A model generated the notes under the pieces. The model was not told where the DNA came from. It saw only the letters and a list, made by a program, of their open reading frames with translations, and did not search any database. Below, one piece after another: positions 4,773-61,741 of a DNA stretch of 64,000 nt. The position numbers were made by a program, and so were the translations under genes. Position 1 is the stretch's first letter; the number at the start of each line of letters is the position of its first letter. The stretch spans positions 124,001 to 188,000 of the IMG/VR virus record IMGVR_UViG_3300044796_000657, one strand, 5' to 3'. This DNA is from a virus.

Positions 4773-5582
4773 TCACTCGCCCGCTTCTGGTTGTGCTCCA
4801 AAAAACAAAACGTTAACCCGATTGGCAACCTTATTGAGAGGCGGCATATCCAAACGGACATACTCCGTTCGCTCAATTTCCAAATCCGGATTCAAGCGGG
4901 CATGATGTTTCGGAGGCAAGGATTCCAAATCAACAGCCCTTAACTTGCTGCTGAATCTTCGCCGTTGGATATAAGAACCCCGCTTGAAGAAATCGGGATA
5001 GTTGTTCCAATTAACACCCTTTTTGAAAAGCATTTCCTGTTTTTCAGAACCAGTTTTGTGCATAAGCTCGCCGTGACTGTAAAACTCTTGTGCAGCCATT
5101 GAAATTGAATTCTTCGTGGCATCAAACTCACGCCACAAAAATGCGTTCGCACCCTCTTCAAGTGTCGGCAATTGCCAAACCCGACAATCGAAAACCGGTT
5201 CCGCTGCCGTTTTTTCGGCGATGAAACTTGGAAGCAAGCGATTGAATTTGACCGAACACTTTGCCGCCAAAACACTCACCATCTTCTGGATTCGGCCATC
5301 AAAATAGATTTGACTTTCCGTAGTGCCAGAATACCATGCCAGCGTGATTTCGTCCGATTGCGTATAACCACAAACAGCATTGGTTTCCTCAACAAGATAC
5401 TTAACCGTCTCGATCATAAGATCGGACAATCGTTTGTCATAAGGCCGTTCAAGTCCGTTGGTGAACTTGGAAAACCCCTTGCCATCCAAACGGGCAACAA
5501 TTGGCAAAAGAGGCAGAAACCTTCGTCCTGCTTCCATGCCTTCCAAATACTTCATTCGGTCGCCGAAAACATCAGTTATCAC
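4773..5582 (-). CDS. Thg1-family 3'-5' polymerase (tRNA-His guanylyltransferase-like)
   Basis: 269 aa, typical length for the Thg1 superfamily. The two metal-binding blocks are present: RLDGKGFSKF (residues 31-40, Asp33) and GYTQSDEITL (72-81, Asp77-Glu78). Thg1 enzymes add nucleotides in the 3'-5' direction, either G(-1) on tRNA-His or, for Thg1-like proteins, templated repair of 5'-truncated tRNAs. A bacteriophage copy is more likely to be a Thg1-like repair enzyme, but substrate choice cannot be read from sequence. It sits alone between unknown small genes, in a window that also holds a tRNA, a tRNA-like RNA and a tmRNA. Confidence 0.88.
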   Translation of the reverse strand: MITDVFGDRMKYLEGMEAGRRFLPLLPIVARLDGKGFSKFTNGLERPYDKRLSDLMIETVKYLVEETNAVCGYTQSDEITLAWYSGTTESQIYFDGRIQKMVSVLAAKCSVKFNRLLPSFIAEKTAAEPVFDCRVWQLPTLEEGANAFLWREFDATKNSISMAAQEFYSHGELMHKTGSEKQEMLFKKGVNWNNYPDFFKRGSYIQRRRFSSKLRAVDLESLPPKHHARLNPDLEIERTEYVRLDMPPLNKVANRVNVLFFGAQPEAGE

Positions 5583-6977: not shown

Positions 6978-7044
6978 TAAATTCTAACACCTCCATACTG
7001 ATGAAGTTATCATAGTATGGAGGTGCAGAGATTTCAAGTGGAAT

Positions 7045-7411
7045 TGGAGGTGTCGAGAATCGAACTCGATTCCTATCGTTCAGCACTAAATTCTTCATTC
7101 ACGTGTGTCTTCAGCATGTTTTTGTTCGCTCACATGGCACATTACTGCGAAGCCATGTTACGCTAATGATCTTACCATTTAGTTAGCCGCTCTTCCAGAC
7201 CATAAGGTGAGCAGCGATCCTGATTTAACAACGGAACTTTCTCCCCTTCAGGCTAGAAGATCAGTTCCGGGCCATTAACCGAAGTTAGGCGGCCATGCGG
7301 AGCTCAGGCTCAACATTTAAAGTTTTTTCATGGAATTTTTACGTGGCCAACCATGAATCCACGACACGCAGAAACTTAACACTCAAACGTAGTCGATACC
7401 AGTTCACCCCC
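7045..7411 (-). ncRNA. ssrA: Transfer-messenger RNA (tmRNA)
   Basis: Full one-piece tmRNA of about 367 nt. The 5' end GGGGGTG pairs with the 3' acceptor strand CACCTCC (one G-U), followed by discriminator A; CCA is not encoded. The 5' conserved block TGGTATCGACT matches the tmRNA D-like region. The T-arm is perfect: TCGAG, loop TTCGATT, CTCGA. The tag frame ends ...GCC GCC TAA (stop at 7285-7287) and would encode roughly VEPELRMAA, possibly with one more residue before the Val; the resume codon is not certain. GC-rich stem segments downstream fit the pseudoknots. tmRNA with SmpB rescues stalled ribosomes and tags the product for ClpXP; no smpB is seen in this window. Confidence 0.9.
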
Positions 7412-13422: not shown

Positions 13423-13527
13423 GGCCGTATTTAGCCAAAATTACATAAATATGCGAAGATGGTTTTTGGGCCGGAAACTATATTAGTGGTTGAGAGGCAG
13501 TATTCGGAAAATCAACCATTTCGGGAA

Positions 13528-13535
13528 TATATAAG
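13528..13535 (+). promoter_or_regulatory. Candidate late promoter box TATATAAG
   Basis: TATATAAG ends 33 nt before the ATG at 13569 with no recognisable -35. Similar boxes stand 22-25 nt before three other virion-like or small membrane genes (24681, 35914, 62600), suggesting a -10-only promoter class. Confidence 0.4.
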
Positions 13536-13568
13536 GCACCGGGCGCAGGTATAGAGGAAAGAAACGTA

Positions 13569-15569
13569 ATGTCACATGAAAAAGATGTCCGTGAATTGAA
13601 GTTAAATATTGTTGCAGGTGAAGGTCTAGCCGATTTGCGAACCAAAGATGTCGGGCAAGATGGCATGAAATTGCACAAGAAGAAACATCATCACCACAAC
13701 GACAGTTCGGGAAACTCTTCCGGATCTGGCGACTCGTCAAATTCGTCCGGCTCTGAAAACAATTCTTCGGAATCATCCGGTTCTGGTTCTGGGGATGCAA
13801 CTTCACAATCAAGCGGCTCTGCTGAAAGTGTTGCTTCAAGCGGAAACAGTCGATCAAATGACTCATCAGGTTCTTCTAATTCGGGTTCAGGTTCGGGGGA
13901 ATCTCATTCTGGTTCAGGGGACTCCAGCGGAAGCAACGCCTCTAAATCATCAGGTTCGGAATCCATCACATCTTCGCAATCGTCTGGGTCAAGTGGATCG
14001 TCCGGCGTATCTTTCTCCGAAGAAAGTTCAGCGGGTCGTGATAACCGCAACAAGGATACAGGGGAAGAGCATAAAGGAAGAATGATGAAAAACCGCAATG
14101 TCATCAACGAAGTTGTTGATGGAAAGGTTTTTCATGAATTCAAGGATTATGTGGCGGAAGTTAACAATCAAACTGCCGATGTAAAAAGTAACCCACATCA
14201 AAATGTAGGTGGAAATATCCCTACACCTAAAAAGTTCCACAAAGCAGCTATGAAAGCCAAAATGGGCAAAGTGGCGATGATGGGTGCCGCTATGATGGGC
14301 AACAATTGTGTTAAACAACAAGGGTTGATTGGTCGCTTATCTACTCACGTTCAAACCCGTGAAAAAGTTGGTGAAAAATCTCCTTCATTACAAGATGCAA
14401 AAGAATTGCTTTTGATCCTCCAAGTTCGTTATGCCAATAATTGTCAAGGCAATGGCATGATGATGAATAAAGGATCGTCATCGTCGTCAGATTCAGGCAT
14501 GAGCAACATGATGATGACGGGGAAAAAAGGCATGAATGGCATGATGATGATGGGTGGCGGCGGGCCGGGTGGTCCAGGGCCGGGGCCGGGCATGAGTGGA
14601 GGGCCGGGTATGGGTGGCGGGGGTCAAAGCAATCCTAATATGATGAAGATGAAGAAAAAAATGATGATGACGCCAATGATGAAAATGATGACGCCTGCGA
14701 TGATGACGAAAATGAAACAAACGATGATGATGATGACGAAAATGAAATCTAAGAAGATGAAATCTCAAAAGAAATCAAAATCAAAGAATTCAAAACCAAA
14801 ATCTCAAAAATCTAAATCACAATCGAAACCGAAATCAGGTGGTGGGCCGGGCGGGCCGGGCAGTCACGGTATGGGGCCAAAAATCACAGGAAGTAGCAGT
14901 AGCGACAACTCCTCATTTGTGCCGTTTTCTAGTTCAGCACAATCAAGTGCAAATGGCAGCTTGAGAGCAAGACTACAAAAGCGAAAAAACAACAGATACC
15001 ATGTATCAACCAGCAAAAGAGCAATTATCGCCGATGAGTTAAAACTTAACAAAGAAGAAGAATTGCCGATTTTTGATGTGGCAGGTGATAAGCCCAACAC
15101 ACCTAGCTTGAGCTGGTGGTGGCCAAGTCCTCCTGAAATCATTAACAGAATGTTCACAATGGCAAATCTCAAAGAAGGCGAAACCGTCTTTGACTTAGGC
15201 TGTGGTGATGGTCGTATTCCGGTTCAAGCAGCAACCAAATGGGGCTGCACAGGTGTTGGAGTTGACTTTGATGAAAACCTTTGCCGTCAAGCGAAAAAGC
15301 GGGCCATTAGATTGAAAGTTGAAGATAAGGTTGAAATCAGACACGGCGATGCATTAAAAGTTAATGATATTGAACGTGCTGATGTTGTGACGCTATATAT
15401 TCTTGATAGAGGCATGAGACTTATCAAACCTATTCTTCAATCCAAGTTGAAGAAGGGTGCGAGAATTGTTTCTCACAACTATAAATTCAAAAATTGGGAG
15501 CCAGTCAAAGAAGTGGTTGCCACTGATAAAGAAGGTCATAAGCACTGGATTTATCTCTACGTGGTTTAA
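13569..15569 (+). CDS. Lys/Met-rich tail protein fused to SAM methyltransferase
   Basis: 666 aa in five parts. A His/Lys patch and a long Ser/Gly-rich acidic linker (about 36-155); a conserved block with GGNIPTPKK and MKAKMGK (215-245); a Gly/Met and Lys/Ser/Met low-complexity region (300-430); NGSLRARLQKR (462-472); then a complete class I methyltransferase (505-666). The last has WWWPSPPEI, motif I DLGCGDGR (542-549), GVGVDFD, the acidic end of strand 3 (HGDAL), and a C-terminal IVSHNYKFKNW...HWIYLYVV. This domain matches DOT1-like/FAM173-type enzymes, a group with known protein-lysine methyltransferases. Acting on its own or its neighbour's lysines is inference. SD is AGGAAAG. Confidence 0.8.
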   Translation: MSHEKDVRELKLNIVAGEGLADLRTKDVGQDGMKLHKKKHHHHNDSSGNSSGSGDSSNSSGSENNSSESSGSGSGDATSQSSGSAESVASSGNSRSNDSSGSSNSGSGSGESHSGSGDSSGSNASKSSGSESITSSQSSGSSGSSGVSFSEESSAGRDNRNKDTGEEHKGRMMKNRNVINEVVDGKVFHEFKDYVAEVNNQTADVKSNPHQNVGGNIPTPKKFHKAAMKAKMGKVAMMGAAMMGNNCVKQQGLIGRLSTHVQTREKVGEKSPSLQDAKELLLILQVRYANNCQGNGMMMNKGSSSSSDSGMSNMMMTGKKGMNGMMMMGGGGPGGPGPGPGMSGGPGMGGGGQSNPNMMKMKKKMMMTPMMKMMTPAMMTKMKQTMMMMTKMKSKKMKSQKKSKSKNSKPKSQKSKSQSKPKSGGGPGGPGSHGMGPKITGSSSSDNSSFVPFSSSAQSSANGSLRARLQKRKNNRYHVSTSKRAIIADELKLNKEEELPIFDVAGDKPNTPSLSWWWPSPPEIINRMFTMANLKEGETVFDLGCGDGRIPVQAATKWGCTGVGVDFDENLCRQAKKRAIRLKVEDKVEIRHGDALKVNDIERADVVTLYILDRGMRLIKPILQSKLKKGARIVSHNYKFKNWEPVKEVVATDKEGHKHWIYLYVV

Positions 15570-15583
15570 CCCAAAGGAAACAT

Positions 15584-16507
15584 ATGTCAAATAACGAAAA
15601 TGATCTGATCCCGCAAAACGCTGAACATGTCGGCCAGAATATTCCTACGCCCAAAAAGGAGAAAATGACCACCAAAAAAGGCAAGATGAAGGCCAAGATG
15701 GGAAAGGGTAAAAAAGCTCACATGAAAGCCAAGATGGGAAAAGGAAAGAAAGCTCACATGATGAGCAAAGCCCATATGGCTAAGATGGCTAAGAAAAAGA
15801 TGAAGGCCAAAATGCAGAAGCCTCAAATGAAGGCTAAGATGAAGATGAAGGCCAAAATGAAAAAGGCCAAGATGATGATGACGGGTATGACGGGCGGCAT
15901 GTCGATGGCCCAAATGAAATCAAAAATGAAGTCTCAGATGAAGTCAAAGATGAAATCATCTAAGACTCCAAAAATGAAATCATCGAAACAACCAAAGTCA
16001 ATGGGCCAATCACAACAAAGTGGGCCGGGTCCAGGACCAGGTCCAGGGCCGGGGCCGGGTGGTGGCGGATCGGGTAACCAATCTAAGAAATCTAAATCGA
16101 AATCAAAGATGATGGGATCATCGGCTTCCGGTATGATGTCTAAGATGAAAAATTCGAAGTCAACGAAATCTAAGCCTAAATCACAATCACAATCACAATC
16201 TAAGCCACAATCTACAAAATCCCAACCGGACTTCTGTAAGAATACAAGATTGAAATTGGATACTTTACTTCAAAGAATTGATAGACTGCAAGTTTTAGGC
16301 GATACTGAAAACCTAACTTGGAGCAAACGACTATACAGAATCATGGAAGATCGTTATGCACAATTCTGCAAGTCCAGTAGTAGTGCTTCAACAGGTAGTT
16401 TAACTAGTAGTGTAATTAGCAGTGCGGTCAGTAGTGCGGCTGGCAGCAGTAGTCAAGCCAATGGTAGCTTGAGAGCTAGATTGAAAAAACGTTGGAAAAA
16501 TCGTTAA
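15584..16507 (+). CDS. Lys/Met-rich low-complexity protein
   Basis: 307 aa, mostly Lys, Met, Ala, Gly, Ser: repeated KAKMGKGKKAHM and MKAKM units (residues 20-110), Lys/Ser-rich blocks, and a Gly/Pro insert. It shares with the upstream fusion protein the N-terminal GQNIPTPKK, a central helical block ending in RYAQFC (RYANNC in the partner), and the C-terminal ANGSLRARLKKR. It lacks the methyltransferase. Composition resembles H1-like basic tails and would bind nucleic acid strongly. 14 nt after the upstream stop, SD AAGGAAA: co-transcribed. Possibly a virion or genome-condensing protein. Confidence 0.75.
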   Translation: MSNNENDLIPQNAEHVGQNIPTPKKEKMTTKKGKMKAKMGKGKKAHMKAKMGKGKKAHMMSKAHMAKMAKKKMKAKMQKPQMKAKMKMKAKMKKAKMMMTGMTGGMSMAQMKSKMKSQMKSKMKSSKTPKMKSSKQPKSMGQSQQSGPGPGPGPGPGPGGGGSGNQSKKSKSKSKMMGSSASGMMSKMKNSKSTKSKPKSQSQSQSKPQSTKSQPDFCKNTRLKLDTLLQRIDRLQVLGDTENLTWSKRLYRIMEDRYAQFCKSSSSASTGSLTSSVISSAVSSAAGSSSQANGSLRARLKKRWKNR

Positions 16508-16510
16508 ACT

Positions 16511-16539
16511 AAAAAGCCCGGCAATTGCCGGGCTTTTTT
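16511..16539. terminator. Bidirectional terminator
   Basis: Perfect 18-bp palindrome GCCCGGCAATTGCCGGGC flanked by A5 and T6, between the convergent genes ending at 16507 (plus) and 16539 (minus). Confidence 0.9.
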
Positions 16540-18341: not shown

Positions 18342-18836
18342 CTACACGATTTTTGGAAGCCATTTGGATAGATTGGCATCTTGCTCTCTGACAAGATTTG
18401 CCAAATCGGTTCGATACTCCTGTAGTTTAACAAGAATTTCTTTATTATCCAATGCCAAAATTTGTAAAGCCAATAGCGCCGCATTTTCGCCAGCATCCAC
18501 ACCAACCGTTGCGACAGGCACACCCTTGGGCATTTGACTTGTACTCAACAAACTGTCTAGTCCCATTAGCGATGTACTCAACGGTACACCGATCACAGGC
18601 TTGAGAGTGTGAGAAGCCACAACGCCCGCTAAGTGGGCTGCTTTGCCCGCTGCGCAAACGTACACACGGCATCCTTTGACTTCACAATGCTTGACATACT
18701 CCAAAAGATCAACAGGGCTGCGATGCGCACTCAATATGTGAGCATCGAATTCAACTCCAAATCTCTTGAAGATTTCGCAAATTTCTTTCACCGTAGCGAA
18801 ATCGGCATTACTTCCCGACAGGACTGTCACTAACAT
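18342..18836 (-). CDS. purE: PurE, N5-carboxyaminoimidazole ribonucleotide mutase
   Basis: 164 aa, the usual PurE length, from the ATG at 18836. Conserved blocks: VTVLSGSNADFATV (phosphate loop), ILSAHRSP with the essential His-Arg, AAGKAAHLAGVVASH, and MPKGVPVATVGVDAGENAALLA. It interconverts N5-CAIR and CAIR in purine synthesis. An 80-residue upstream extension in the same frame overlaps another real gene and is not part of the protein. The start overlaps the end of the upstream gene by 29 nt. With PRPP synthetase and FolD it would boost purine supply. Confidence 0.9.
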   Translation of the reverse strand: MLVTVLSGSNADFATVKEICEIFKRFGVEFDAHILSAHRSPVDLLEYVKHCEVKGCRVYVCAAGKAAHLAGVVASHTLKPVIGVPLSTSLMGLDSLLSTSQMPKGVPVATVGVDAGENAALLALQILALDNKEILVKLQEYRTDLANLVREQDANLSKWLPKIV

Positions 18837-19176
18837 TAATTTGCTCTTTTCTAAATGAACCAATGTATCGTTGCATATGATCTTGAACCGCTTTGGCGTC
18901 TTCTGGATCTTTCCAAGTCCACAAAATACGATGATCGGTAGCGCCGCCAAGGGGCTTTGCCGAAGTACTTGAATAAGTTCGGGCTTGCTGTATGAAATCC
19001 ACATTTTGTTGCGGATCATACCCAATGGTGATGATGAGCTTGCCATTAATTCTGTCAACTGTTTTTTGCTCGGCATCCTGTGTGAATGTCACAGGCAAAC
19101 CAACGCAAACTAACACGGTAAAAAGGATACCGAGTAGAAAGCCGATAAAAGCACAGTACATCTTACCAGTGTTCAT
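18808..19176 (-). CDS. Membrane-anchored hypothetical protein
   Basis: 122 aa from the ATG at 19176. One N-terminal membrane segment (CAFIGFLLGILFTVLVCVGL, residues 8-27) followed by a soluble domain that looks alpha/beta (LIITIGYDPQQNVDFIQQA, ILWTWKDPEDAKAVQDH). No signal peptidase site is evident, so a type II anchor is likely. Overlaps the previous stop (ATGA) and the purE start. Confidence 0.65.
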   Translation of the reverse strand: MNTGKMYCAFIGFLLGILFTVLVCVGLPVTFTQDAEQKTVDRINGKLIITIGYDPQQNVDFIQQARTYSSTSAKPLGGATDHRILWTWKDPEDAKAVQDHMQRYIGSFRKEQINVSDSPVGK

Positions 19177-22904: not shown

Positions 22905-23654
22905 TCAAGACCATGTCAATTTACGACCGGTCAATTTAGATAATTTAACAATTTGCGGCGTGTAAAAATGTGCCACACGCTTGCGATCTTCTGGATCTAG
23001 TTTCATATCATCATAAGCCTTGTTGTATTTCTTGAGGACTTTTTCATCGTAGTCTGGCGGTACAAAAGAATCGTCCACACCAACCCACTTAAAAACTTCC
23101 CGCAAGAAACCCAATGGATCAGACACCATATCATCGTAGAACAGTACTTTTATCCGATCTGGTTCAAAGTATCGATACCAATTTTCTAAAAGATCACCGT
23201 ACATCCCCTTGGACTTTATAGAATAAGGTGAGAGTTCACCCTTGGGGTGATTGCCATCAAAAGCATCCATAAAACTCACCTCTGGTTCAATTTTCTTGTA
23301 CCATAAGTGATCCTTATAATGGCTGAATGCCCTATCAATAGGGTTTCGCAACAGTACAAACAACTTGACGTTCGGGAAATAGGTCTTTATGAGCGGTGGA
23401 GCATATGGGCAAGAAAAATAGTTTGGCGTGAATTCGCCTACGCATTCGTGTTTAAGTCTTCCGAAACACTTCAAATATCTTTTGAGGGGAATGTTAAGTC
23501 TGTCGAAGAAGTGAAATTCCTTAATTCTTTTGCCACGTGGATTCTTGGGTGTGCCGATACTTGGATGCTTCCGCATTTGTTTCCAAGTCCAAGTTGTACC
23601 GCCCTTCATTACGCCAATGCCATAAAAGTCGGGGGAACGATACTTTTTCTTCAT
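22905..23654 (-). CDS. PAPS-dependent sulfotransferase
   Basis: 249 aa. The 5'-phosphosulfate binding loop is seen as GVMKGGTTWTWKQM (residues 14-27), and the 3'-phosphate binding block as LFVLLRNPIDRAFSHYKDH (98-116). These are the signature regions of heparan-sulfate-type and bacterial sulfotransferases. It would move sulfate from PAPS to a hydroxyl or amine, possibly on a surface glycan or virion sugar; the acceptor is unknown. Phage sulfotransferases are uncommon. It sits between clpX and a lysine-rich virion-like gene. Confidence 0.85.
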   Translation of the reverse strand: MKKKYRSPDFYGIGVMKGGTTWTWKQMRKHPSIGTPKNPRGKRIKEFHFFDRLNIPLKRYLKCFGRLKHECVGEFTPNYFSCPYAPPLIKTYFPNVKLFVLLRNPIDRAFSHYKDHLWYKKIEPEVSFMDAFDGNHPKGELSPYSIKSKGMYGDLLENWYRYFEPDRIKVLFYDDMVSDPLGFLREVFKWVGVDDSFVPPDYDEKVLKKYNKAYDDMKLDPEDRKRVAHFYTPQIVKLSKLTGRKLTWS

Positions 23655-23747: not shown

Positions 23748-24656
23748 TTAGTCTTTGCTGATGTCGCTTGCCCCACCCTGAGCCTTGAACGTTTGGGTAA
23801 TCGATCCCCACAAACGAGCAACACCCAAAGTGCCGCTGACTTCATAAGTACCATCAGTACCAGTCAAGCGGAAAAGTGAAACCAACCGAATATCGTTTGA
23901 ATCGCCAGCATTCGTGCCACGGTCATGTAAGATCGTCCAATTTTGAGGACGTTTGAAGCTGTCAGTTGAAGGCCCGTTGACACCAATTACACCGTAAAGC
24001 AATTCTTTGTCTTGACTTGTCGTGGCAGTCATACCAGAAGTTGCGAATACAGCAGCTACCGAATTATAAGCAGCGGCAGTCTTATCGGCAGGGGTATCTT
24101 TTTCAACGTTCTTGAATTCATCGCCCATAATCACACGGCGAGCAGAAGCCGCATGGGTCACAGTCACAATGGCGTTTTTAGCAAGGGCGTTAACACCGGA
24201 CGTAGCAAACAAAGTCAATACATAGCCGCTATTGAAGGGGACTTCCGATAATTTGACGTAAGTATTACCCAAAGAGTCAGCACAACTCGTTGTACCGCTA
24301 TTTGAGGACTTGTAAGCCAAGAAAGCAATGACGATTAAAAAGTCAGTTGAATTATCGTTATGTGGGGAAGTCGCAACAGTCAAAGTTGTGGTCGTTTGCT
24401 CAGTCAAACTTGTGACGATATTATGTCCAACACTTCGCATGTATTTAACAGGGTTTTTATGAACGTGCTTACCACGAACGCCTTCTTGCAGGTCATTCAT
24501 GCGGCCTTTCATCATACGGCCTTTCATTTTACCCTTTTTCATACCCATGTGAGCTTTCTTGCCCTTGGCTTTCATTTTGCCCTTTTTGGCTTTTTTCATA
24601 TTTTGACCGTGATCTTTGTTTTGACCAGCTACATCCTGATTAGTTTCAATGCTCAT
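23748..24656 (-). CDS. Lys/Met-rich N-tail with beta-sandwich virion-like domain
   Basis: 302 aa. Residues 1-60 are lysine-rich (KKGKMKAKGKKAHMGMKKGK), closely resembling the tails of the two proteins at 13569-16507. Residues 80-302 look like a beta-sandwich domain: TTTTLTVATSP, SLGNTYVKLSEVPFNSGY, LFATSGVNALAKNAIVTVTH. This arrangement occurs in phage and bacterial surface or decoration proteins. A capsid-binding or DNA-contacting role is inferred. A TATATAAG box stands 25 nt upstream. Confidence 0.65.
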   Translation of the reverse strand: MSIETNQDVAGQNKDHGQNMKKAKKGKMKAKGKKAHMGMKKGKMKGRMMKGRMNDLQEGVRGKHVHKNPVKYMRSVGHNIVTSLTEQTTTTLTVATSPHNDNSTDFLIVIAFLAYKSSNSGTTSCADSLGNTYVKLSEVPFNSGYVLTLFATSGVNALAKNAIVTVTHAASARRVIMGDEFKNVEKDTPADKTAAAYNSVAAVFATSGMTATTSQDKELLYGVIGVNGPSTDSFKRPQNWTILHDRGTNAGDSNDIRLVSLFRLTGTDGTYEVSGTLGVARLWGSITQTFKAQGGASDISKD

Positions 24657-30688: not shown

Positions 30689-31216
30689 CTACGGTTTCCA
30701 GATCGTTTCTTTTCCACCATAAGCAAACAGCTCATGACGGGCCAAAACGAAAAAGAAATCCGACAAACGATTTAGATAAGTAACGAGCAGTGGGTTGCTA
30801 ATGGCACCAGCACTTAGGGACGCCACAACATACCGCTCAGCTCGCCTACAAACAGCACGGCAAAAATGTATCCATGCTGCAGCCGCTGAACCGCCCGGCA
30901 AAACAAAGTTAGTTAACGGCGGCAAATCATTCGTCAGCGTATCAATTTGTTTTTCTATCGCCTCAATGTCTTGATTGATAGATTCGTATCTGGATTTTGA
31001 CAAGCACAACTCGGCACCCAAAGCCAACAGTTGACCTTGTACAACTTCCAAGAAACGCTTATCAACTTTGTGCTGAGCAACAGCATAGCCAATCGCAGCA
31101 TTCAATTCATCTACTGTACCCAAAGCGTCAATCAAAACATGATCTTTGGGTAGTTGAGCACCATTACCTAATTTGGTTGCGCCCTTATCGCCTTGTTTGG
31201 TGTATATCTTACTCAT
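30689..31216 (-). CDS. Cob(I)alamin adenosyltransferase, PduO type
   Basis: 175 aa, the usual size. Signature pieces: KIYTKQGDKGATKLGNGAQLPKD (residues 3-25), IDALGTVDELNAAIGYA, and the C-terminal CRRAERYVVASL ... YLNRLSDFFFVLARHE. The enzyme adenosylates reduced cobalamin to make coenzyme B12. It has no other cobalamin gene beside it in this window. Its presence in a phage suggests a bid to extend host B12-dependent metabolism, perhaps ribonucleotide reductase, but this is inference. Confidence 0.9.
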   Translation of the reverse strand: MSKIYTKQGDKGATKLGNGAQLPKDHVLIDALGTVDELNAAIGYAVAQHKVDKRFLEVVQGQLLALGAELCLSKSRYESINQDIEAIEKQIDTLTNDLPPLTNFVLPGGSAAAAWIHFCRAVCRRAERYVVASLSAGAISNPLLVTYLNRLSDFFFVLARHELFAYGGKETIWKP

Positions 31217-31867: not shown

Positions 31868-33025
31868 TTAGTATCCAGCGGGTTTGTCATGGCGACCAAC
31901 GAACAGAACGGCACCGGTTGGGCGATGCGTAATCACGTACATGAACGGACGATCTGCGATGAACCGGCGTGGGACTTCGGGCCGCATCATTGCCGAACAC
32001 TTCATCATCACCACTGCCGTAGCCGCCGCTGCTTCGGTACCCTTTTCCGTGGTATCGATGACTGCCTTGTGAACAGCCTTACTGACTTTGATGGACGGAG
32101 CCATCGAATTTTCCGGATACGCACCACGGAAATTGGCTTCATCCGTGAATACGATCTCCATACCCAAAGCCGAAAGGGATTCTTTCAAGTCCAAATCGGA
32201 TTCGATCTTGAACTTTGGAAGCATCAAAACAGTATCACCAGAGCGGGTAGAAGCAGTTAACTTCTGCAGTAATTCACTACTCATGTTCGCTTCGATATCG
32301 GCCAGACCATCTTGTTTTGTCGGCAGAATGACGTTAAGAACCGTATCCCCCGCATAGGGAATTTCGATCATCTGAAGATCGTCGGTCTTTGCCAACATGT
32401 AATCGCCTTGGCGTACCATCATCTGACATTCGGATTGTTGGCCGTCAGAGAGATTGAACGGTTGCTTGCGAGTTAGCCCTTCGTTGAACTTTTCTTTGAA
32501 AGTGGCGAAGAAATAGATCGCCGACACCAAAGCCATCACGGTGTCTTTGTTAAACATTTCCGGCTTGACCAAATCCTTGATCAGCGGCTCACCCTTTTCA
32601 GAAAGAGTTTGCTTGCCAACCCATTCATTGATTTCATCAGAAACTTCTTTGGACTTCGTGAAATCCGCCGAAGCCAAATTGGCACCGCTGCCTTCTTTGA
32701 GCGTCTTTTCAAACGCTTCACTGAAAGGGTAACCGTCCGATTTCCATACGGCATTGGCAGTCTTGATCGTAGCGCCGGTATCTTTGGCGAGCAAGGCGTT
32801 AATTTTTTGGATGCTCGCCAAAGTCGTAGAACACGAATTCGGAAAATTCATCGTGCTTCGCATCGATGCGGCTGTGTCCGATCTTGCCGCTGCATAAAGC
32901 ATAGCGAAACAGTCGGAGATGTTTTTGGGGGAACAAATCAAATTCCCCTTCTCCTTAACCGACAATCCCCGATAGAGATTGAAAGTGAAATCATTGATGC
33001 CAGTAATAAACTCGGTGATCTTCAT
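31868..33025 (-). CDS. Serpin (serine protease inhibitor family)
   Basis: 385 aa, full serpin length. Helix-A to C region NDFTFNLYRGLS, CSPKNISDCFAMLYAAAR; breach and shutter residues INEWVGKQT and IYFFATFKEKFNEG; gate/sheet-A AVHKAVIDTTEKGTEAAAATAVVMM. The hinge from Glu327 (EKGTEAAAATA) is of the inhibitory type, and alignment by hinge spacing to alpha-1-antitrypsin places P1-P1' at Cys343-Ser344, followed by FIADRPFMYVITHRPTGAVLFVGR. No signal peptide is seen, so it acts in the cell or on virions. It could trap a host protease; a Cys P1 is unusual. Phage serpins are rare. Confidence 0.9.
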   Translation of the reverse strand: MKITEFITGINDFTFNLYRGLSVKEKGNLICSPKNISDCFAMLYAAARSDTAASMRSTMNFPNSCSTTLASIQKINALLAKDTGATIKTANAVWKSDGYPFSEAFEKTLKEGSGANLASADFTKSKEVSDEINEWVGKQTLSEKGEPLIKDLVKPEMFNKDTVMALVSAIYFFATFKEKFNEGLTRKQPFNLSDGQQSECQMMVRQGDYMLAKTDDLQMIEIPYAGDTVLNVILPTKQDGLADIEANMSSELLQKLTASTRSGDTVLMLPKFKIESDLDLKESLSALGMEIVFTDEANFRGAYPENSMAPSIKVSKAVHKAVIDTTEKGTEAAAATAVVMMKCSAMMRPEVPRRFIADRPFMYVITHRPTGAVLFVGRHDKPAGY

Positions 33026-40067: not shown

Positions 40068-40301
40068 TTACTGATATGGAACTAATACCCATGAATGGCC
40101 AGCGCCGTATGAATATTTCCATTGTGCCAAATACCTCTTGTCGCCCACTTCAATCACCCACCAAGTACTAGATTGTTTTTCAATAACCTTGGTACGTGGT
40201 GGTAATTTGCTCTGTTGCTCTTCCAAAAGTCCTGCATCTGATTGACACCCGCACAAACTGGCTACCAAAATAATTATGATAACCCAAAAAATCGTTCTCA
40301 T
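40068..40301 (-). CDS. Lipoprotein, 77 aa
   Basis: N-terminal MRTIFWVIIIILVASLCGC has a hydrophobic signal and lipobox SLCGC (Cys about residue 19). The mature part is short and Trp/Tyr-rich (WWVIEVGDKRYLAQWKYS). It overlaps the ALDH gene stop (TAATG). A lipoprotein of this size, near a TM/coiled-coil gene at 42804, invites comparison with Rz1-like outer spanins. Confidence 0.7.
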   Translation of the reverse strand: MRTIFWVIIIILVASLCGCQSDAGLLEEQQSKLPPRTKVIEKQSSTWWVIEVGDKRYLAQWKYSYGAGHSWVLVPYQ

Positions 40302-41851
40302 TACTTCAATCCTTGTGCCATTTGGAAGCCTTCTTGGTCATAATTTGCCGTCCATGAAACTTCATGAGTTACAGCCTTGAAAGATCCTGCTGCAGAAGAA
40401 CCACCATAACCAGATCCTCGAATTCCGCCAAACGGGATGTGACTTTCCGCACCTATAGAGGGTAAATTCAAATACCCCAATCCAAATTCACAATTATCAC
40501 GCATGTATCTTGCGATATGCATGTTGTTTGTAATAGTTGCCATACTCAGACCGTACTGGGTGTCATTGTAAATATTAACGGCATCTTCGGGCGTATCAAA
40601 AGGAATGATAGCTACGTGAGGGCCAAACACCTCTTCCCGCAAGTAGACATTCGATGGCTTTTCATCGTGCCATTCGCCCTTTGGCGTCCACTCTGCCATA
40701 TAAACATGCGGAGTGAGACAGCGGTCACTTACTTGCTTACCTTCCAACAAAATTTTCGTATTGATTTTAACTGCACCGCTATAACAATTCGCCTTTTCAT
40801 CTGCGGCTGCATTCTTTATAGTCAATTGATTGTAATGAAGCACCTTCTTTGTTTGTGCTTCATTGATAAGTGGCCCGTAATCAGGTGTTTCTGCCGCAAA
40901 CGGATCACCAACAGTTAACTTCTTAGCAGCATCTACGAACAACTCGGTGAATTTATCAAGGATCGTTCTTTGAACAAGAATACGACCAGCACTCACACAC
41001 CGTTGTCCCGATAACTTGAAGGCACTTGTAATACACGCCTTAACTGCCAAGTCCATATTCGCATCATCAAAAACAATGACAGCACTCTTACTGCCTGTTT
41101 CGCATGAACAAGACTTATGCCAAGACTGATTACAAATATCACGAATGATATGGCTTACTTCGGCAGAACCGGTAAAGCAGACATGATCGATTTCAGCTTC
41201 TACGAGAGCTCGCCCGGCAACCTGTCCACAGCCTTGTACTAAATTGAATACTCCGGGTGGGAATCCGGCCTCATGATACAATTCGGCAATGATCTGGCCT
41301 ACGTACGGCGTTTCCTCGCTCGGCTTGAATACAACCGTATTACCCTCAAGGAGAGCAGGAGCTGAAGTCCAGAACCCGCCAATGGCAAAGGGGAAGTTCC
41401 ACGGGGAAATAACACCTACAACGCCCTTTGGCTTACGGAAGATAAAAACATCTTTAGCCGCAATTTCCGAAGCAACGATCTTGCCGATTTGCTCTCTACC
41501 TTGAGCAAAAGTATATTGCGTCATGTGAAGGGCTTCGTTAACTTCAGCAATGCTTTCATTGAGATTTTTGCCGGTCTCCAATGAAATTGCTTTAACGATT
41601 TCATCAAATCTTTTAGCCATTACATCTGCGAGCTTGAGAAAATATTCAGCTCTGGCAATACGGCTGAGTGAACGCCAAGCCTTTTGCTTTGAGCGGGCAA
41701 CGGCAACAGCATGAAACACAGTCGCAGCATCCGTTTCGGGAAAGTGTCCTACGACTTCGCCAGTAGCTGGATTGGTAGAAGCAAAGAGTTTGTCGGGATG
41801 TGAAATGTTTTTATGCCACTTACCGTCAATATAATTTTTTCCAATTAACAT
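40301..41851 (-). CDS. Aldehyde dehydrogenase
   Basis: 516 aa, full ALDH fold. Nucleotide-binding SPWNFPFA and FTGSAEVS; the general-base Glu region CETGSKSAVIVF (about residues 253-264) and catalytic Cys in SGQRCVSAGR (about 284-293), with EEVFGPHVAIIPF later. Closest by motif to NAD-dependent semialdehyde dehydrogenases. Which aldehyde is oxidised is not determined. Unusual cargo for a phage, perhaps boosting host catabolism. SD GAGG; it starts inside the end of the upstream gene. Confidence 0.9.
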   Translation of the reverse strand: MLIGKNYIDGKWHKNISHPDKLFASTNPATGEVVGHFPETDAATVFHAVAVARSKQKAWRSLSRIARAEYFLKLADVMAKRFDEIVKAISLETGKNLNESIAEVNEALHMTQYTFAQGREQIGKIVASEIAAKDVFIFRKPKGVVGVISPWNFPFAIGGFWTSAPALLEGNTVVFKPSEETPYVGQIIAELYHEAGFPPGVFNLVQGCGQVAGRALVEAEIDHVCFTGSAEVSHIIRDICNQSWHKSCSCETGSKSAVIVFDDANMDLAVKACITSAFKLSGQRCVSAGRILVQRTILDKFTELFVDAAKKLTVGDPFAAETPDYGPLINEAQTKKVLHYNQLTIKNAAADEKANCYSGAVKINTKILLEGKQVSDRCLTPHVYMAEWTPKGEWHDEKPSNVYLREEVFGPHVAIIPFDTPEDAVNIYNDTQYGLSMATITNNMHIARYMRDNCEFGLGYLNLPSIGAESHIPFGGIRGSGYGGSSAAGSFKAVTHEVSWTANYDQEGFQMAQGLK

Positions 41852-61276: not shown

Positions 61277-61741
61277 ATGACCCCGCAAGAATTCTTATCA
61301 AATCCAACCAAAACCATAGTAACGTACCCCAATGAGATACTAACAACGGTTGCTCAGTCGGTTGAAGACATTAACGAGTGGTCAGAAATCAGCAAACTGA
61401 TGGGCGAAATCATGATCGAAAACAATGGTATCGGTTTAGCAGCCCCACAAATCGGCCTATCTTACAGAGCATTTATTATTCGTTTTAGTAATCAAAACAT
61501 CTTATACCTTAACCCCGAAATTATTTCAAGTGGAAATCACTTCAGTGAAGTGGAAGAAGGATGCTTGAGTTTGCCGGGAGTGCACATTAATGTGAAGCGT
61601 CCACAAAAAATCAAAGTGCGATGGATGAAACCAAACGGAAAGAAACAAATTGCCACTTACGAAGGATTAACTTCCAGAGTTTTTCAACATGAACTAGATC
61701 ATCTTAATGGCAAATTGATTAATTTAAATCAGCAAGAATGA
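61277..61741 (+). CDS. def: Peptide deformylase
   Basis: 154 aa. All three motifs: GIGLAAPQIG (51-60), EEGCLSLPG (93-101, metal Cys96) and FQHELDHLNG (137-146, HELDH in place of HExxH). It removes the formyl group from new N-terminal Met, coupling to high-rate translation. Many large phages carry a copy. It has its own promoter and may help translation alongside the phage tmRNA and tRNA. Confidence 0.93.
   Translation: MTPQEFLSNPTKTIVTYPNEILTTVAQSVEDINEWSEISKLMGEIMIENNGIGLAAPQIGLSYRAFIIRFSNQNILYLNPEIISSGNHFSEVEEGCLSLPGVHINVKRPQKIKVRWMKPNGKKQIATYEGLTSRVFQHELDHLNGKLINLNQQE

Follow-up and report, generated by a model that had tools for sequence, protein, structure and literature searches.

Two adjacent genes of a phage genome, one joining a methyltransferase to low-complexity lysine-rich tails and the other carrying such tails with no enzyme, raise the question of what the methyltransferase modifies. 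Both lie in a 64,000-nucleotide stretch (the window) that spans bases 124001-188000 of a virus record of 430,229 bases. Matches to a terminase (E 4e-11) and to a Gp23-type capsid protein (E 5e-27) identify the virus as a T4-related jumbo phage. The capsid gene sits at 312 kb and the terminase gene at 333 kb of the record, both distant from the two genes considered here. Among phage records, LR756511.1, from an uncultured phage of 595 kb without annotation, is nearest by terminase (41.6% identity); it has matches to 139 ORFs of our phage and no counterpart of genes 1 and 2 or of the other tail genes described below. The two reading frames and the 14-nt gap between them, as given in a preliminary description of this DNA, are real in both the ORFs and the junction sequence. 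They form an isolated plus-strand operon amid minus-strand genes. In the upstream region (13520..13568, plus strand) we identified a ATATATAA element, beginning 42 nt 5′ of the ATG, and a GAGGAAAG ribosome-binding site, and the operon ends in a strong intrinsic terminator (16511..16538, plus strand) with a 12-bp stem and a T run (-20.7 kcal/mol, z -6.2).

Gene 1 (13569..15569, plus strand, as are all features of the operon) encodes a protein of 666 residues that opens with a short basic and His-containing segment (residues 1-42), followed by an acidic Ser-rich stretch (residues 43-158, 13695..14042) with 55 serines and a net charge of -10. A lysine- and methionine-rich (K/M) segment containing NIPTPKK and MKAKMGK occupies residues 216-243 (14214..14297) and leads into a Cys-flanked stretch (residues 244-293, 14298..14447) that resembles one in gene 2. 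This is followed by a K/M/S/GPG-rich stretch (residues 294-455, 14448..14933) with 26 lysines, 34 methionines and a net charge of +24, by the ANGSLRARLQKR motif (residues 461-472, 14949..14984), and by the methyltransferase core (residues 516-666, 15114..15566) with motif I, VFDLGCGDGR. The preliminary description had reported Ser-rich, Lys/Met-rich and NGSLRARL parts joined to a methyltransferase with DLGCGDGR, and this layout holds. Gene 2 (15584..16507) encodes a lysine-rich protein of 307 residues with no enzyme domain (63 lysines, 34 methionines, net charge +62). Its K/M/S/GPG tail (residues 19-214, 15638..16225) begins with NIPTPKK at residue 19, and is followed by the Cys-flanked stretch (residues 215-264, 16226..16375) and, after a Ser run, by the ANGSLRARLKKR motif near the C-terminus (16457..16492).

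What kind of methyltransferase is it? In Pfam, gene 1 matched generic methyltransferases and DOT1 (PF08123) over the SAM-binding part. The DOT1 match was above the curated cut-off; it covers profile positions 28-90 of 205 and does not continue into the rest of the domain, so that the likeness to DOT1 (KMT4, the histone H3K79 methyltransferase) is confined to SAM binding. The best matches in a sequence search of the PDB were 5bxy (2e-27) and the crenarchaeal enzyme aKMT, 5fa8 (4e-26), the latter aligned across positions 12-161 of 161 and thus over the whole catalytic core. The NCBIfam model for protein-lysine N-methyltransferase, NF041081, matched at E 2e-30 over positions 1-138 of 142, with a score of 105.6 bits against a curated equivalog cut-off of 200. 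The domain therefore falls outside the archaeal aKMT equivalog, and the substrate known for the archaeal enzyme cannot be carried over to it. Motif I is intact, with D48, G50, G52, D53 and R55 invariant among 53 homologous sequences. The motif I aspartate is required in human FAM173B (PMC5828452) and the G38R substitution abolishes aKMT activity (PMC4639711).

An AlphaFold model built with the 53 aligned sequences gave a pLDDT of at least 90 for 148 of the 172 residues of the methyltransferase domain. In Foldseek the first match was Sulfolobus aKMT (5fa8; E 5e-18, TM 0.92 on target length, rmsd 1.1 Å), and ranks 1-5 were all occupied by aKMT or a homologue of it from Salinibacter, with TM values of 0.83-0.92 on target length. 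The next enzyme class appeared at 7e-11, seven orders of magnitude weaker. Predicted viral protein structures gave no close match (best TM ~0.6). Sequence and model together support well an assignment of the gene 1 domain as an aKMT/FAM173-type protein-lysine methyltransferase. The preliminary call of a DOT1-like/FAM173-like enzyme was right, structure prediction agreed, and the call can be made more precise: the domain is of aKMT/FAM173 type and not a true DOT1.

Compared with aKMT (aKMT4; PDB 5fa8, 5fad, 5jwj), the phage domain has the same fold, an equal core length and 34-36% identity, and conserves motif I and the VVT...VSH region. However, aKMT is a stand-alone cellular enzyme of ~160 residues, whereas the phage domain is the C-terminal part of a 666-residue low-complexity protein. 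FAM173A and FAM173B (ANT-KMT and ATPSc-KMT) are distant aKMT homologues that also combine an N-terminal targeting region with a catalytic domain (PMC9006661, PMC5828452). Unlike the phage protein they are mitochondrial and membrane-anchored, act on single-site substrates and have no Lys-rich tail. The known aKMT/FAM173 enzymes are therefore either stand-alone or membrane-anchored, and fusion to a lysine-rich tail sets the phage protein apart.

The closer relatives of the domain are bacterial. Homologues from Acidobacteriota, Planctomycetota and others share 36-45% identity with it; they are mostly stand-alone, carry no K/M tail, and many seem by eye, without a signal-peptide program, to be exported. 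In a tree the phage domain sits on a long branch beside two sequences from Planctomycetota (97/96), which makes an origin in bacteria likely without fixing the exact donor. Stand-alone aKMT-like copies with 30-38% identity to the phage domain also occur in IMG/VR contigs (L114-L123), one of which, L118, has by eye terminase-like and portal-like ORFs beside the gene. The enzyme type is therefore not unique to this phage; the unusual part is the fusion. In the flanks of 90 bacterial and viral-contig homologue loci there was neither a K/M tail nor a lysine-rich ORF (15 K in 40 residues). In contigs L116-L123 several of the stand-alone genes carry a CNxxCxMCNR-like motif and, judged by eye, an export signal.

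How are the two operon genes related? The preliminary description had gene 2 repeating the tails of gene 1. The two share motifs (NIPTPKK, MKAKMGK and ANGSLRARLxKR), and gene 2 indeed lacks the enzyme; the tails themselves are not copies of one another, having only these short motifs and their composition in common. Over the 26 codons of the three motifs, 12 are identical between the genes, 13 differ synonymously and one differs by a replacement; between ANGSLRARLQKR and ANGSLRARLKKR there are six synonymous changes and one replacement. This pattern argues that the protein sequence is under purifying selection, and that the motifs are old paralogous parts maintained by it. All six Ser codons are used in the Ser-rich stretch of gene 1, which is therefore not a DNA microsatellite, and the K/M-rich stretches are likewise of mixed codon usage. 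Gene 2 does contain a recently duplicated 36-nt unit (15686-15761). The Cys-flanked stretches are 50 residues long in both genes, with Cys at the flanks and RYAxxC at the end. Aligned to each other they score 36; shuffled sequences average 19.3 (sd 3.7), and 3 of 2000 shuffles reach the observed score, giving modest support for homology of the two stretches. The K/M stretches showed no excess of helical amphipathicity at 100 degrees over shuffles; a two-residue alternation is present in the K/M stretch of gene 2 (z 3.6) and absent in gene 1. The ANGSLRARLKKR motif is C-terminal in gene 2, and ANGSLRARLQKR forms the hinge ahead of the enzyme in gene 1. This order of parts gives gene 1 the appearance of a gene-2-type protein that gained a methyltransferase at its C-terminus.

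A stepwise scan of the phage record for further tail genes revealed that the tail extends beyond the operon, in a family of at least five genes with the operon pair included, which the preliminary description had overlooked. The five proteins align over the KGKMKAKMGKKAHM core, with K18, M21, K22, A23, K27 and A29 invariant, and are fused to different ends. Of the three members outside the operon one lies 8 kb away on the other strand and two at 399 and 422 kb. The third tail gene (window 23748-24656, record 147748-148656, minus strand; 302 residues) has an N-terminal K/M tail with a KGKMKAK-GKKAHM core, followed by a presumed globular domain that is beta-rich by eye. This gene matched no family in PHROG or NCBIfam, its domain found no relatives in viral contigs or phages, and a single-sequence fold was unusable (pLDDT 31) and was discarded. 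T4 gp21-type cleavage (LxE|G) releasing its tail was considered, a site NDLQE|G being visible by eye, and set aside as such sites are common by chance. The fourth (record 399410-399829, plus strand) and fifth (record 421831-422148, minus strand) genes combine the K/M tail with a small Cys-rich end sharing CxC...(S/T)TQxEC...C. A sixth, looser relative (record 427698-428777, plus strand; L023:7699-8778) has a Met/Gly/Pro-rich N-terminus and a second domain carrying ASHELLELLGDP, a metallopeptidase-like motif by eye; this domain has two homologues, in viral contigs L204 and L205. The gene at 369599-370615 was rejected as a member, its product being acidic and scaffold-like.

The family may also share an upstream signal. 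Of five tail-family transcription units, four have the pattern TATA(A/T)A(A/T) within 60 nt upstream, as do 16 of the remaining 561 genes (Fisher 6e-6, with the pattern chosen after some of the sites had been seen). Having been picked post hoc, it is a lead and not proof. It is present at the operon, 147748, 421831 and 427698 and absent at 399410; upstream of the third tail gene the ATATATAA element lies at 33 nt. At 427698 the element falls at -10 to the ORF start used, and that start may therefore be wrong. The shared motif and this post hoc element are the reasons for regarding the three distant tail proteins as possible partners of the operon. The T4 late promoter, TATAAATA, was rejected as the family element, since its single upstream match is outside the tail family. 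Elsewhere in the phage record a different motif, GTGACCATACA, is enriched upstream of phage genes (~19 regions, compared with 4 for the opposite strand) and is probably a phage regulatory element.

Beyond this phage genome we found no homologue of the K/M tails in the collections searched. Searched as DNA patterns in IMG/VR, NIPTPKK gave 42 matches and MKAKMGK 22, none with such a tail. A search with KGKMKAK gave 36 matches, including some phages with small K/M/G-rich proteins (L222, L221 and L229); we rejected these as relatives, their composition being similar and the rest of the motif absent. In L222 (2263-3970), L221 and L229, genes for small basic proteins, K-rich as well as K/M/G-rich, follow one another in a structural-looking cluster. 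A tail search of 95 genomes from one planctomycete family was empty, with a query that is composition-biased and also misses known paralogues in its own genome, so that this negative carries no weight.

We consider the best explanation to be a writer tethered in cis whose targets are its own tail and the tails of its relatives, and we give this an even chance of being correct. Gene 1 would encode a SAM-dependent aKMT/FAM173-type methyltransferase for which the flexible polycationic tail of the same protein acts as a tether. Through the common tail, the Cys-flanked stretch and ANGSLRARLxKR the enzyme would meet the gene 2 protein and perhaps other tail proteins, so that many tail lysines could be methylated in cis and in trans, probably as mono-methyl-lysine, as in aKMT. 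Methylation of lysine keeps the charge and changes hydrophobicity and protease sensitivity. For these tails it might thus alter the hydrophobicity, protease resistance and polyanion binding of a polycation that retains its charge. aKMT has no substrate-recognition domain; it automethylates and acts broadly on many lysines, in the chromatin proteins Sul7d and Cren7 and in other proteins (PMC4639711). Human FAM173B methylates poly-L-lysine and not poly-L-arginine (PMC5828452). By analogy with these two activities the tail-tied enzyme probably modifies the tail of gene 1. The tails of the operon pair are plausible substrates: the gene 2 protein, with its 63 lysines, could be modified through the shared tail and motif, and perhaps the other three tail proteins are as well. 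We think it unlikely that a full tail code operates, in which the shared K/M tail would mark phage proteins and the tail-tethered writer would methylate the family, switching tail binding. If the writer reading is correct, enzyme and putative substrate of protein-lysine methylation would be found within one bacteriophage operon, and protein-lysine methylation in phage infection would become directly testable with two genes. The open literature that we searched contained no paper bringing together bacteriophage, phage-encoded and protein lysine methyltransferase.

An alternative that we find tentative, and on balance rather doubtful, is that the tail serves for targeting or anchoring and is itself not the substrate. 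It would bring its different cargo domains (the methyltransferase, the presumed globular domain and the Cys-rich domains) to one site such as the virion, the cell surface or the phage DNA, where the methyltransferase would act on another, perhaps host, protein. The same tail core on unrelated domains suits an address better than a substrate, enzymes of the aKMT type are broad in their substrates, and ANGSLRARLxKR is poor in lysine yet among the best conserved parts. However, some automethylation would be hard to avoid for a broad lysine methyltransferase tied to dozens of flexible lysines, and gene 2, directly after gene 1, has no other recognisable domain; Pfam and PHROG gave nothing for it at E up to 1, and NCBIfam gave two weak matches to unrelated models (best E 0.027).

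The preliminary description had suggested a phage chromatin-like system, perhaps to tune genome packing or virion assembly. That tails bind and condense phage DNA in such a system, with methylation tuning packing or unpacking, now appears improbable. The tails are strongly basic, and with a net charge of +62 DNA binding by the gene 2 protein is possible; aKMT methylates archaeal chromatin proteins (PMC4639711), and small basic K/M/G-rich proteins of other phages lie in structural-looking clusters (L222:3677-3970). However, Pfam, PHROG and NCBIfam revealed no histone, H1, HU, HMG or related nucleoid-protein domain in gene 2, the capsid and terminase genes are far away, and one family member has a separate, apparently globular domain and two have Cys-rich ends. 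Since the tail is fused to such different domains, a general anchor or surface tail fits at least as well. We favour general anchoring or coating over genome packing specifically, with phage DNA, the cell or virion surface and a condensate as candidate targets. Packing has a small chance of being right, and no result here ranks it above surface display or general anchoring.

We see a similarly slim prospect for a surface or adhesive polycation, in which the tails would be displayed at the surface of the virion or cell and would be protected, or made more adhesive, by methylation. The precedent is mycobacterial HBHA, whose lysine-rich low-complexity tail carries methyl-lysines (PMC8467707). The Ser-rich, GPG-rich and K/M-rich low complexity resembles adhesive proteins in composition, and the third member has an extra domain of globular appearance, with a sulfotransferase gene 94 nt downstream (PF00685, E 1e-13; window 22905-23654, minus strand). 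HBHA is, however, not homologous, has no fused methyltransferase and differs in repeat composition, and its heparin binding is unchanged by methylation (PMC8467707). Genes 1 and 2 have no visible signal peptide, and the third member matched no virion-protein family. Finally, a non-protein substrate (tRNA, rRNA or a small molecule), with the tail merely adding nucleic-acid affinity, is very unlikely: a polycationic tail would bind RNA, 5bxy is labelled an RNA methyltransferase and the best PHROG match a tRNA methyltransferase (E 2e-4), but the 5bxy label is annotation only, and the domain is closest to aKMT by sequence and fold, with true tRNA enzymes reaching a TM of 0.4-0.5 on target length.

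The window contains several other genes of note. On the minus strand these include a Thg1-type tRNA-His guanylyltransferase (4773-5582, E 4e-30), a phage-encoded tmRNA (7042-7411; tag VEPELRMAA, Rfam 104 bits), an AIR carboxylase, PurE (18342-19076), a cobalamin adenosyltransferase (30689-31216) and an aldehyde dehydrogenase (40301-41851), and on the plus strand a peptide deformylase (61277-61741). The window also encodes a full-length serpin (31868-33025, minus strand; PF00079, E 6e-96, 322 bits), which is unusual in a phage genome.
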